Source of the DNA: Bdellovibrio bacteriovorus
Lineage (GTDB): Bacteria; Bdellovibrionota; Bdellovibrionia; Bdellovibrionales; Bdellovibrionaceae
DNA length: 64,000 bases
Direction of reading: 5' to 3'
NCBI RefSeq assembly: GCF_001592745.1
Contig: NZ_LUKD01000001.1
Location: forward strand, 2,079,890-2,143,889
Shown here in pieces: positions 24,389 through 29,334 of the stretch. The notes below the pieces were generated by a model. The model worked only from the letters and a program-made list of their open reading frames with translations. It was not told the origin of the DNA and made no database searches. Position numbers and translations under genes: made by a program. Position 1 is the stretch's first letter, and each line of letters opens with the position of its first letter.

Positions 24389-25603
24389 TTGACAAGAAAA
24401 GACTATCTCAACCTTATTTGGAAATCTTATCCCGCGATGCCGTCTGAAGCTCAGGCGGCCGGGCGAATCTACAAGATCGAAAAAGACGGGGAGTCGCTCA
24501 AGCTGACTCTGTCCCGCGATAATAAATTCCATAAAATTGAATTTGCCAAAGCCCCCGAACATTCAGAATTTTTGCTCGAAGGGGATTTGGTCGCCGTCGT
24601 ATCGGCCACGCAAATCGTGCTTTTAGCTCCGCAAAAATCACCTCTACCGAAGCGAACTTTCAATAAGAACCTGCTGGCAAGTTGGTCTGAATACCTGCAA
24701 GGTATTAAGGACTTTTTCACTCAGGAAGAGTTTTTGGAACTAAAAACTCCCTCTCTAGTAACCTGTCCCGGTACCGAACCCAGCCTGGATGTTTTTTCGA
24801 CTGTTTTGCAAGTCGGATCCCGTAAAGAGAAACTGTACCTTCCTACCAGTCCTGAGCTTCATTTGAAAAAAGCTTTAGCCTTAGGGGCTGAAAAGGTTTT
24901 CGAAATCGCGCCTTGTTATCGCAATGGTGAAATCACCGAAAGACACCAGCCCGAATTTTTAATGCTGGAGTGGTATCGTGCTTATGACAATCTTTCCACG
25001 ATTAAAAAAGACGTGGAAAAGCTGGTGGTTTTTCTAGCAAAAAAATTAAAAGTCGAAGCGCCAAAAAAAGTGCGCAGCGTGAGCATCGCGGAGCTTTTTA
25101 AGCACTATTGTGACTTTGATTTAAAGCCAGACACGACGAAAGAAGAACTTAAATCTCTCGCGGCAAAGCTTGGCGTTGATGTGCGAAGTGCCGAAAGTAT
25201 CGACGACTATTTCTTCCTTATCTTTATGGAAAAAATTGAGTCGGTGTTGCCACCGGATGAGCTTATCTTCGTCGAAAAATATCCTCCTTATCAGGCCGCT
25301 TTAGCCCGTCTCACGGAAGACGGCTGGGGGGATCGCTTTGAGGTGTATTGGAAGGGATTAGAACTTGCCAATGCCTTTCATGAACTTAACGACCCAGGCA
25401 TTCAGCGCCTGCGCTCGAACGAGGATCTTGAAAAAAAGAAGAACATGGGGAAAGAAGTCGTGACTCTGGATGAAGAGTTCTTTCAGTGCTTAGAAGCAGG
25501 GATGCCGCCTTCGGGGGGAATCGCCTTAGGTCTAGAAAGACTTTTCATGGCATTGATCGGCCTCTCTGACATCACAAATGTTAGGGTCTTTTCAAAATCG
25601 TAA
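24389..25603 (+). CDS. epmA: EpmA-like elongation factor P lysyl-ligase (GenX/PoxA)
   Basis: A class II lysyl-tRNA synthetase core without the usual anticodon domain. Motif 2 is YRNGEITERHQPEFLMLEWY, AFHELNDPGIQRLR precedes motif 3, and motif 3 is GGIALGLERLFM near the C-terminus. EpmA joins beta-lysine to elongation factor P, which relieves ribosome stalling at proline runs. It has 404 residues counted from TTG 24389, while typical EpmA has about 325. The extra 80 residues (AGRIYKIEKDGESLKLTLS onward) look like a small beta-rich OB-type domain. ATG 24437 is an alternative start but has no ribosome site. No epmB is in the window. Confidence 0.85.
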   Translation: MTRKDYLNLIWKSYPAMPSEAQAAGRIYKIEKDGESLKLTLSRDNKFHKIEFAKAPEHSEFLLEGDLVAVVSATQIVLLAPQKSPLPKRTFNKNLLASWSEYLQGIKDFFTQEEFLELKTPSLVTCPGTEPSLDVFSTVLQVGSRKEKLYLPTSPELHLKKALALGAEKVFEIAPCYRNGEITERHQPEFLMLEWYRAYDNLSTIKKDVEKLVVFLAKKLKVEAPKKVRSVSIAELFKHYCDFDLKPDTTKEELKSLAAKLGVDVRSAESIDDYFFLIFMEKIESVLPPDELIFVEKYPPYQAALARLTEDGWGDRFEVYWKGLELANAFHELNDPGIQRLRSNEDLEKKKNMGKEVVTLDEEFFQCLEAGMPPSGGIALGLERLFMALIGLSDITNVRVFSKS

Positions 25604-25721
25604 GATTCAAATCGGCTTTACGAGCTGCTTAACAAAGTCCGTTTCATCATGAGATTCACGCGGAACTTTGTGGAGTATTATCATATTATAGTTAAGAAAA
25701 AATCGTAAGGGGTGCTGAGGA

Positions 25722-25749
25722 CTGTTCCGAAAAGTGTATCATGGAACAG
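25722..25749 (+). promoter_or_regulatory. Inverted repeat enclosing the fibre gene start codon
   Basis: CTGTTCC (25722-25728) and GGAACAG (25743-25749) form a perfect 7-bp stem whose arm includes the G of the ATG at 25741. In RNA this would hide the start codon; in DNA it could be an operator. No good ribosome site lies at normal distance from this ATG. Confidence 0.4.
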
Positions 25750-28700
25750 CAAACGGTACGTAAAGGATTGTTTTTCTTTGCGCTTTTGTTTTTATCAAAA
25801 GCGGTCGCGACGCCCACGACTTTGAATTATCAAGGTCGCATTCTTAAGTCTGACGGAACGCCGTTAGAATATAACAACGTGAGCTTTGCATTTGAAATCA
25901 CGAATGTCTCTGGAACTTGTGTCTATTATCGTGAACAGCGTAATGCCGTGAATATGCAAGGTTCGAAGGGTGTCTTCGATATTCCTATCGGTGAAGGTAC
26001 AAAACTTTTTCCAACAACAGCCAGTTATTCTTTAAGGGACGCTTTCAACAATTCCGTCACACATGATTGTGATGGCGGTACGACTTATACGCCTTCTTTA
26101 GATGAAGTGCGTGTCTTGCGCGTACAATTTCATGATGGCGCTGGCTGGAAGGCGATTACTCCCAACAACACGATTCGCTCCGTGCCTTTTGCGAACTATT
26201 CTTATTCCGCAGCGAAGCTCGGCGACAAGCTTCCTTCGGACTTCGTTTTAAAAACCAGTGTGACCTCGTGTCTGCCGGGACAGTACCTGACCTTTGATGG
26301 CGCCAGCTTCGCCTGTCAGAATGATGCCGGGGGAGCAGGCATGGTTTCTGACGTCAACGTCACCGCTCCGCTCACCAAAGGCGGAACGGCTTCGATTCCT
26401 GTGCTTGGTATTTCCGTGGGTACGACGGCAGGAACCGTCGCCGCCGGGAATGATGCGCGCTTCACAGATGCACGTCCTCCGACGGGGTCCGCAGGTGGAG
26501 ATCTTGGTGGCGCTTATCCAAATCCTTCTGTCGTAAAACTTCAAGGCGTGACTGTTTCTTCTGCTGCGCCAACGTCAGGACATTTTTTAAAGTATGACGG
26601 CTCCCAGTGGTTGAGTTCCGCAGTGGCGATTTCAGATGTGACGAATTTGTCTTCGACGTTGAGCACGTATATGACGACGGCGGCCTTCAACACCGCCGTG
26701 GGAAGCGGGAACTGTGCGGCTTATCAAACGCCGTATTGGAATTCTGTTTCAGGATCTTTTCAATGTCAGTCGATCAATGTTTCGGTCGCCGGTGACGTGA
26801 GCGGAAGCATTGGAGCTGTCAGCGTGAATAAGATCAAAGGCGTGGATGTTGATACAACGGGTTTAACTGCGGGCCAGGTGTTGAAGTATGACGGAACGAA
26901 GTGGGCCCCCGCGAGTGATTCGAATGCAGGCGGGACCGTTACGAATATTGCGACAGGCACAGGTTTGAATGGTGGCCCGATTACTTCGACGGGTACTATT
27001 TCTCTTGCGAACACGGCAGTGTCTGCCGGATCTTATACGCGTGCGAATATCACCGTCGATGCTCAAGGTCGTTTGACAGCCGCCGCTAACGGAGCCGCAG
27101 TGAATCTTGCAACGGATGTCACGGGGACTTTGCCGATTGCAAATGGCGGCACGGGACAAACAACAGCGGTGGCGGCGTTTAATGCGCTTTCTCCTTTGAC
27201 GGCAAAAGGGGATGTTGTTGTTAACGACGGAACGAATGATATTCGTCTTGCCGTAGGTACGAATGGCCAAGTTCTTTCTGCGAATTCAGCGCAGCCTTCG
27301 GGACTTCAATGGGTGACACCGACAAATGGAACTGTGACGAATGTCACGGGAACGGCTCCGATCGTTGTTGCAACAGGATCGTCGACACCTGCGATTTCAA
27401 TTACTGATGCATCGACCTCTGCAAAAGGAGCGGTGCAAGTCGGAGCTGGTATCGCGGTTTCATCTGGAACTATCAGCGCGGATCCTGCGAACTTTCCTTC
27501 CGCTGTTCCTGTGAGTAAAGGCGGTACGGGCGTAACATCGCTGACCGCAAATCGTCTTATCGCTTCGAACGGGACGGGCGCGGCTTTGACAACATTTAGC
27601 TGCGCGGTCGGACAGCTTGTCAGTTTCGATGCGACGGGATTGATGACCTGTTCGTCATTCACGACCGGCTCGGTTTTCCTGAATGGAGGAAACAGTTTCG
27701 GAGCCGCAGCGACATTGGGAACGAACGATGCTTACAATCTCGCTTTTGAAACGGGCAATACCGAACGCATGACAATCAAGAGCGATGGGAACGTCGGTAT
27801 CGGTGTGACAAATCCCACGGCGAATTTACATGTTTCAGGGGCGAGCGCGGTGGCGCGTGTTTCGGCCAGTGGTTTAAACGAAGACGCAACTCTACAAATC
27901 AATAATGGCGCTGAAAATACGGGCTTTGCGCTGACTCGTTCAGACACGAACAATGCTTTGCAAATCAACTATGAGTCACCGATTGGCACCGTTTCGAAAC
28001 AAGCGATGTCCATTGCGAGTACGGGATATGTGGGTATTGGAACTTCGACGCCAACTTCGGGTCTGACCTTGGTGAACAATGCTGTGGGCGACGCGAATGA
28101 TGATATCAATATTCAGACCTATTCCGACACGAATACGCCATCATTGATCTTAACAAGATACCGTGGCAACGCGACGACACCGACGCCCCTGGCTTTAGGA
28201 AATATCGGAAGTCTTTTGGTTCGCGGTTACAATGGTTCGGCTCTTATGGAAGCGGGAAGTATTCGTTTCGCGGCAGAGGAAGCCTGGAACGCCACGACGA
28301 CAACCAACAATGCCGCTTTGACTTTCCATAGTGCTACGGATGGAAGTTCGACGGAAAAAATGCGAATCGCTTCTAGTGGAAACGTCGGTATTGGTCTCAC
28401 CGCGCCTTTAGCCACTTTGCATGTCGGCGGCAATATAAAGCTGGGCCCTGTTAATCCCGCAAATACCGGGACACTGCCAAACTACGGAAACTTTCTGTAT
28501 TTCCACGGCGGACCCGCGCCCGCAACTTCAGACAGTGATGTCACCGATCCTCTTTGGATGGCTCGTTATAATATTGCGGCCGATCAATCCGAGCTGCGTG
28601 TGAATTTCTCGGATAACAATCAAGTTCAGGATGCTTTCTCTGTTGGTTACACGAGTGCTGGCGTTTTCAATCAATTGCTGCGTGTGCAAGGTGATGGTAA

Positions 28701-29334
28701 GGTGGGAATTGGTGATGCGACTCCCTCATTCAAACTCGATGTTGCCGGGGAAATCGCCGCTCGTAATGGTCCGGGCACTGTGATTTACATGGGCGGTGAC
28801 GCAAGTGCGGATCTTGAAATCGGAACGACAAGCACGGCGCAGAACTCGCTTGTATTTTACAATCGTGGTGGTGGTTACGCGATGGACATTCAAGCACGTA
28901 ATATTACGTATGCGGGATCACTCAATCCTTCGGATCGCCGTTTGAAGAAAGACATTCAGCCTTTGCATTTTTCCCTCGAAAAAATCTTGAAAGTCGAAGG
29001 GGTGAGTTACTACTGGAAAGAGCCGCTCCAGTATTCCGAAGGCTTGCAACGCGGAGTGATCGCTCAACAAGTGGAAGAGATTTATCCTGATCTTGTAAAG
29101 ACGGATAAAAAGGGTCTGAAAAAAGTGAACTACTTGGGCTTTATTTCGCCGATGATTGAAGCGCTCAAAGAATTTTATGCTCTTTGGTACAACGACAGCC
29201 AAGAGTTGCACAAAGAACTGGACGAACAAAAAAGAAAAATGGCTTCACTTGAAGAGACGAATAAAAAATTAGAAGAGCAGAATAAAGCCTTGGAAAAACG
29301 CCTGCAAATAATTGAATCCAAGCTCGGAAAGTAA
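25741..29334 (+). CDS. MAT-like trimeric fibre protein with S74 intramolecular chaperone
   Basis: 1197 residues. A signal peptide (GLFFFALLFLSKAVA) is followed by a conserved head (TTLNYQGRILKSDGTPL). Next come low-complexity Gly/Thr-rich stretches like phage tail fibres (GGDLGGAYPNPSVVKLQGV, LPIANGGTGQTT, SKGGTGVTSLT). Four repeats of (N/Y/K)VGIG-x-T/A-x-P come next, then an S74 chaperone from SDRRLKKDI (Ser1064, Lys1069) and a C-terminal coiled coil. S74 domains fold trimeric fibres and cut themselves off before the catalytic Ser. Bdellovibrio mosaic adhesive trimers with this build bind prey surfaces. Export and the S74 dyad are seen; prey binding is inferred from the family. No other phage gene is nearby. 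Confidence 0.88.
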   Translation: MEQQTVRKGLFFFALLFLSKAVATPTTLNYQGRILKSDGTPLEYNNVSFAFEITNVSGTCVYYREQRNAVNMQGSKGVFDIPIGEGTKLFPTTASYSLRDAFNNSVTHDCDGGTTYTPSLDEVRVLRVQFHDGAGWKAITPNNTIRSVPFANYSYSAAKLGDKLPSDFVLKTSVTSCLPGQYLTFDGASFACQNDAGGAGMVSDVNVTAPLTKGGTASIPVLGISVGTTAGTVAAGNDARFTDARPPTGSAGGDLGGAYPNPSVVKLQGVTVSSAAPTSGHFLKYDGSQWLSSAVAISDVTNLSSTLSTYMTTAAFNTAVGSGNCAAYQTPYWNSVSGSFQCQSINVSVAGDVSGSIGAVSVNKIKGVDVDTTGLTAGQVLKYDGTKWAPASDSNAGGTVTNIATGTGLNGGPITSTGTISLANTAVSAGSYTRANITVDAQGRLTAAANGAAVNLATDVTGTLPIANGGTGQTTAVAAFNALSPLTAKGDVVVNDGTNDIRLAVGTNGQVLSANSAQPSGLQWVTPTNGTVTNVTGTAPIVVATGSSTPAISITDASTSAKGAVQVGAGIAVSSGTISADPANFPSAVPVSKGGTGVTSLTANRLIASNGTGAALTTFSCAVGQLVSFDATGLMTCSSFTTGSVFLNGGNSFGAAATLGTNDAYNLAFETGNTERMTIKSDGNVGIGVTNPTANLHVSGASAVARVSASGLNEDATLQINNGAENTGFALTRSDTNNALQINYESPIGTVSKQAMSIASTGYVGIGTSTPTSGLTLVNNAVGDANDDINIQTYSDTNTPSLILTRYRGNATTPTPLALGNIGSLLVRGYNGSALMEAGSIRFAAEEAWNATTTTNNAALTFHSATDGSSTEKMRIASSGNVGIGLTAPLATLHVGGNIKLGPVNPANTGTLPNYGNFLYFHGGPAPATSDSDVTDPLWMARYNIAADQSELRVNFSDNNQVQDAFSVGYTSAGVFNQLLRVQGDGKVGIGDATPSFKLDVAGEIAARNGPGTVIYMGGDASADLEIGTTSTAQNSLVFYNRGGGYAMDIQARNITYAGSLNPSDRRLKKDIQPLHFSLEKILKVEGVSYYWKEPLQYSEGLQRGVIAQQVEEIYPDLVKTDKKGLKKVNYLGFISPMIEALKEFYALWYNDSQELHKELDEQKRKMASLEETNKKLEEQNKALEKRLQIIESKLGK

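Follow-up and report, generated by a model that had tools for sequence, protein, structure and literature searches.

A putative mosaic adhesive trimer fibre gene next to epmA in Bdellovibrio bacteriovorus: domain anatomy, tip replacement and a recombined shaft

The fibre gene and its domains

Directly 3' of epmA, a 64,000-nucleotide stretch of Bdellovibrio bacteriovorus DNA (contig NZ_LUKD01000001.1, forward strand; hereafter the window, within which all base positions are counted) carries an open reading frame that starts with ATG and specifies a protein of 1197 residues. Our comparisons strongly support the reading that its product belongs to the mosaic adhesive trimers (MATs), which were described from Bdellovibrio in 2024 (PMC10769870), and would be a further member of that family. 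Residues 13 to 172 match the curated NCBIfam model NF053851 (Bdello_MAT_N, "mosaic adhesive trimer family chimeric fiber protein") with 232.7 bits and an E value of 1.8e-69, the cut-off being 60 bits. Further matches were obtained to the solved MAT tips of Bd2439 (8OL4, E 4e-21), Bd3182 (8OJN), Bd1334 (8OML) and Bd2133 (8OND), the Protein Data Bank (PDB) accessions being assigned to these proteins as published (PMC10769870). The gene is under purifying selection along its whole length, with a nonsynonymous divergence (dN) of 0.017 and a synonymous divergence (dS) of 0.21 against the nearest species (genome G005), and the reading frame is therefore not a chance one.

The protein has the build of the family, namely a conserved beta-rich N-terminal domain of ~130 residues after a probable signal peptide, a common fibre shaft, a beta-helix with capping loops, and a mosaic of conserved head and exchanged tip. 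A preliminary description of this DNA had read it as a MAT-like fibre with a signal peptide, a conserved head, a fibre-like shaft, four VGIG repeats and an intact S74 chaperone with a Ser1064/Lys1069 dyad, and all of these parts were recovered. The leader, MEQQTVRKGLFFFALLFLSKAVA, resembles a type I signal peptide by eye, and in the orthologues its character is kept while some residues are changed. The shaft is long and rich in Gly, Thr and Ser. There are exactly four VGIG motifs (residues 685, 764, 882 and 988), and in alignment the loop at the first of them falls on R656-H669 of Bd3182, a capping loop seen in the crystal structure (PDB 8OJN).

Residues 1064 to 1120 match PF13884 (Peptidase_S74) with 61.7 bits and an E value of 8e-17, against a curated cut-off of 22 bits. 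The SDxxxK catalytic motif is intact, and no change of Ser1064, Asp1065 or Lys1069 occurs in the four orthologues or in any of the 20 aligned phage S74 sequences. Ser1064 aligns exactly with the catalytic Ser782 of Bd3182, whose mutation to Ala abolishes cleavage (PMC10769870). An AlphaFold2 model of residues 906 to 1197, a single-chain prediction from an alignment of phage relatives that barely covers the tip and thus a model of the S74 part alone, gives a predicted local distance difference test score (pLDDT) above 90 across most of this domain and ends in a 64-residue C-terminal helix. Foldseek searches with the S74 model matched MyRF ICA (7DC3, E 1.8e-5) and, more weakly, endosialidase (3GW6) and a neck appendage (3GUD). 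MyRF trimerizes by means of its C-terminal coiled coil and is cleaved only as a trimer (PMC8326128). We infer with good grounds that the S74 domain would cleave itself off before Ser1064.

Table 1. Features of the fibre gene and its upstream neighbour (positions within the window)
Feature	Residues	Position	Strand	Evidence
epmA (EF-P lysine aminoacylase), upstream neighbour and synteny anchor		24389..25603	+	TIGR00462 genX, 295.8 bits, cut-off 286.9
MAT fibre gene with S74 at the C-terminal end	1-1197	25741..29334	+	open reading frame, NF053851, PF13884
N-terminal leader, probable type I signal peptide ending AVA-T	1-24	25741..25812	+	inspection of sequence
Conserved MAT head	26-175	25816..26265	+	NF053851 residues 13-172; 56/53% identity to heads of HD100 open reading frames taken as Bd1334/Bd2133
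Shaft, common to many MATs	176-700	26266..27840	+	18 non-orthologous MATs, 67-88% identity over residues 501-650
Shaft block of different history in the nearest species, recombination tract	231-500	26431..27240	+	fourfold sites; informative sites
Capping loop 1, NVGIGVTNPTANLH; module boundary right after	684-697	27790..27831	+	VGIG at residue 685; alignment to Bd3182 R656-H669
Variable tip section with capping loops 2 and 3	701-905	27841..28455	+	23% identity in G008 (residues 706-905); residues 773-901 resemble Bd2439 (8OL4), E 4e-21
Distal tip module with capping loop 4; end of the mature fibre if Ser1064 cleavage occurs	906-1063	28456..28929	+	100/93/84/62% identity in four orthologues
S74 intramolecular chaperone and C-terminal helix	1064-1197	28930..29331	+	PF13884; AlphaFold2; Foldseek

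Orthologues and change at the tip

While epmA is present in all 24 genomes of the genus, a MAT gene follows it in 9 of the 20 related genomes that were fetched, absence being judged within the 7 to 9 kb obtained per genome. G009 has an empty site at which the window's neighbour genes abut without a MAT. Full orthologues were found in G005 (97% identity), G019 (94%), G021 (76%) and G008 (63%). The counterparts in G006, G007, G012, G001 and G003 retain the head (55 to 79%) and differ almost throughout beyond residue ~250 to 600, and a scan of the named genomes gave one distant locus and nothing more. An apparent loss of S74 from the genes at the same position in G001 and G003 was rejected, as it came from a segment search that missed the domain; Pfam and a family search find it in G001, and an SDxRLK motif is present in both.

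Two observations concern the layout of this locus. In G001 (HD100) and G003, a second MAT directly follows the positional counterpart (L083:7223-8800 and a tandem open reading frame on the minus strand of L084, respectively), and the epmA site can therefore hold tandem MATs. The orthologues in G019 and G021 (L080 and L081) carry ~82 extra residues at capping loop 1 (window residues 684 to 694), which contain one further VGxGTxSP motif and look like one extra beta-helix unit.

Compared with G019, the MAT gene has a dS of 0.50 and its neighbours have values of 1.0 to 2.6; fourfold sites differ at 196 of 633 positions in the gene and at 182 of 341 in the neighbours (P 1e-11), the baseline being the four neighbouring genes, not the genome as a whole. 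Identity to G019 along the region climbs near base 25650 and drops near base 29250. This pattern is consistent with the entire MAT having been exchanged between the G019 lineage and that of the window. G021 shows no such deficit (314/490 in the gene, 208/362 in the neighbours).

At close range, the tip hardly changes. Against the nearest species, residues 706 to 905 are 99% identical and residues 906 to 1063 are identical, while in the next species these segments are 93 to 94% identical. With a dN of 0.000 to 0.033 in these two comparisons, the tip is nearly invariant across three species and under strong purifying selection. The preliminary description had expected the tip to differ most between strains, and this fails among close relatives, where the divergent part (against G005) is instead a block of the shaft (residues 251 to 500).

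The same expectation held at larger distance. In G008, residues 706 to 905 have been replaced (Table 1), whereas the shaft (81 to 90% over residues 201 to 650), the distal module (62%) and S74 (64%) are kept. Among 44 non-orthologous MATs, mean identity is 0.44 to 0.55 over residues 601 to 700 and 0.17 over residues 701 to 725. The true module boundary is thus at residue ~700, directly after capping loop 1. A variable region had been placed at about bases 28050 to 28900; the region itself was borne out, but it begins at residue ~701 (base ~27841), ~200 bases further upstream.

For the distal module (residues 906 to 1063), we found no second copy elsewhere in the window's own genome and no match among 50,697 phage records. 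Apart from the orthologues, clear relatives, partial ones, turned up in just two genomes, both from another family of the phylum (51% in G109; 52%, over part of the module, in G104), so that a tip of this type may predate the genus or may have been transferred.

Proposed function and its rivals

Family membership, domain order, catalytic residues, synteny, the boundary at residue ~700 and the recombination tract in the shaft were all computed in this analysis. Trimer formation, cleavage, surface display and prey binding are proposed by analogy with relatives. The best overall explanation, to which we give a probability of about 85%, is a secreted homotrimeric MAT fibre of a Bdellovibrio-type predator, with tips that are replaced as blocks and not diversified residue by residue.

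In such a fibre, the leader would export the protein, the conserved head would anchor it at the predator surface, and the shaft, followed by triple beta-helix repeats with the capping loops that close them (residues 684 to 1063), would extend outward. The S74 domain would trimerize through its C-terminal coiled coil, assist folding of the beta-helix and, by means of the Ser1064-Lys1069 dyad, release itself and expose the distal tip. The exposed tip would then bind, most likely to a prey surface glycan; a glycan is proposed because a family member, Bd2439, binds Proteus O-antigen (PMC10769870). Prey recognition by this fibre is plausible on the same analogy, and MATs are the best candidates for the means by which Bdellovibrio recognizes many kinds of prey.

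Several points weigh against this explanation. Deletion of single MATs rarely gave predation defects (Caulton et al., PMC10769870), and the role of any one fibre is therefore weakly established, even in HD100. The pLDDT is below 50 for nearly all of residues 906 to 1059, a section with hardly any aligned sequence. Something other than exchange could also account for part of the low dS against G019, although G021 lacks the deficit.

The protein might also be a MAT surface fibre with another job, such as sealing of the entry port, positioning inside the prey, vesicle cargo, or adhesion to other predators or to surfaces, and we give this alternative odds that are considerable but clearly short of even. 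MATs have been found in a vesicle left in the prey or elsewhere in the bdelloplast (Caulton et al., PMC10769870), and Bd3182, the best-studied S74 MAT, was seen in the bdelloplast only at 120 to 180 min (PMC10769870). The near constancy of the tip across three species is also more in keeping with a fixed target than with a prey receptor that diversifies. The wholesale replacement of the tip at larger distance, however, suggests changing targets. That the fibre acts late and within the prey, like Bd3182, is a serious alternative, which the constancy of the tip favours slightly.

Characterized relatives share parts of the proposed fibre. Bd3182 of HD100 (8OJN, 8ONB and 8ONC) has a MAT head, a VG(I/V)G capping loop and an SDxxxK S74 domain, but it is shorter (922 residues), its head is 31% identical over 118 residues, its S74 region is 33% identical and its tip is another one. 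The closest characterized heads are those of the HD100 NS74 MATs Bd2133 and Bd1334, assigned in G001 from the lengths of open frames (1038 and 1158 residues against 1031 and 1151) and not by exact match; these proteins also share the beta-helix and capping loops, whereas they end in unrelated beta-sandwich tips and have no S74 domain (PMC10769870). Bd2439, the glycan-binding MAT of HD100, resembles the window's protein over its beta-helix section (Table 1), but it ends in a TNF-like glycan-binding domain in place of the distal module and S74. Phage S74 fibres (endosialidase 3GW6, the GA-1 neck appendage 3GUD and the long tail fibre subunit 6F45) and MyRF ICA (7DC3) share the S74 fold and the Ser-Lys dyad, but they lack the MAT head and belong to other organisms and roles.

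Shaft recombination and the MAT complement

Between the window and G005, residues 251 to 500 of the shaft differ at 27 of 250 positions. The dS is 0.91 in this block and 0.34 in the adjoining residues 201 to 250, as against 0.04 to 0.20 in most other parts. Differences at fourfold sites number 73 of 154 inside residues 231 to 500 and 32 of 506 outside (Fisher P 4e-29). Informative sites outside the block group the window with G005 over G019 by 110 to 10, while those inside group it with G019 over G005 by 32 to 4. These contrasting signals indicate that a shaft tract of ~0.8 kb was replaced in one of the sister species, and most simply this would be the G005 lineage. A paralogous donor of the G005 block was sought in 24 genomes, where the best match (83%) was the G019 orthologue; the donor would therefore be unsampled.

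An error of alignment or assembly, in place of recombination, is improbable as the source of the divergent block, even though such shafts are repetitive and common to many paralogues and both genomes are fragmented (12 and ~20 contigs). The alignment is gap-free across all 1197 codons, most of the differences leave the amino acid unchanged, the frame is uninterrupted, and the block copies no paralogue in the genomes searched, so that collapse of paralogues is no explanation. A phage origin, with the gene specifying the tail fibre of a prophage or of a phage remnant lying in the window, can be dismissed as very improbable: although nearly all its PHROGs matches are to tail fibre and baseplate families (best phrog_9942, E 7e-21), it has a leader and the MAT head, its locus is conserved across species, its distal module is without a match in the phage records searched, and of eight neighbours scanned five are cellular (TldD/PmbA, EpmA, HU, a glycosyltransferase and NUDIX), three are without a family and none is phage.

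Returning to the MAT fibre, swapping of tips between paralogues has been described before (Caulton et al., PMC10769870). New here are the near identity of the tip in the closest relatives alongside a recombined stretch of shaft, and the position of the swap point right after capping loop 1. Following one locus across species gives both the module boundaries and the tempo of change, and the boundary tells which constructs to express (residues ~640 to 1197, and 906 to 1063 alone).

Gain, loss and exchange at the epmA locus may each affect the gene as a whole, and the shared shaft could serve as an arm for homologous recombination. The findings suggest that prey range changes in evolution through the exchange of entire modules. 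The fuller proposal stands, in our judgement, at even odds: MATs would pass from one predator species to another as complete units at one fixed chromosomal site, the shared shaft acting as recombination arm and selection fixing the tips, and prey range would shift by swapping ready-made tips and not by point diversification. If this is true, the distal module would be a tip type absent from the MAT structures solved so far.

The window's genome holds 21 MAT heads and 16 S74 domains, which resembles the HD100 set of 21 MATs, 13 of them with S74 (PMC10769870). By position, 14 proteins have a head and S74, seven have a head alone and two have S74 without an easily recognized head. G001 is HD100 or indistinguishable from it, as it contains exact fragments of Bd2439 and of Bd3182 (an open reading frame of 922 residues with SDARLK at 782). 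Our S74 search found 13 domains in G001, and this agreement with the published count validates the search.

BLAST gave no clear MAT head for two S74-ended, MAT-like proteins of the window's genome, L113:1109-4375 and L114:651-2927. In G003, two MAT genes (C1:617766-618932 and C1:2718577-2719713) are each broken by a TGA codon, with open frames of similar length (412 and 406 codons, respectively); the pair may have decayed together, may reflect gene conversion from a broken copy, or may be in a state that can be switched.
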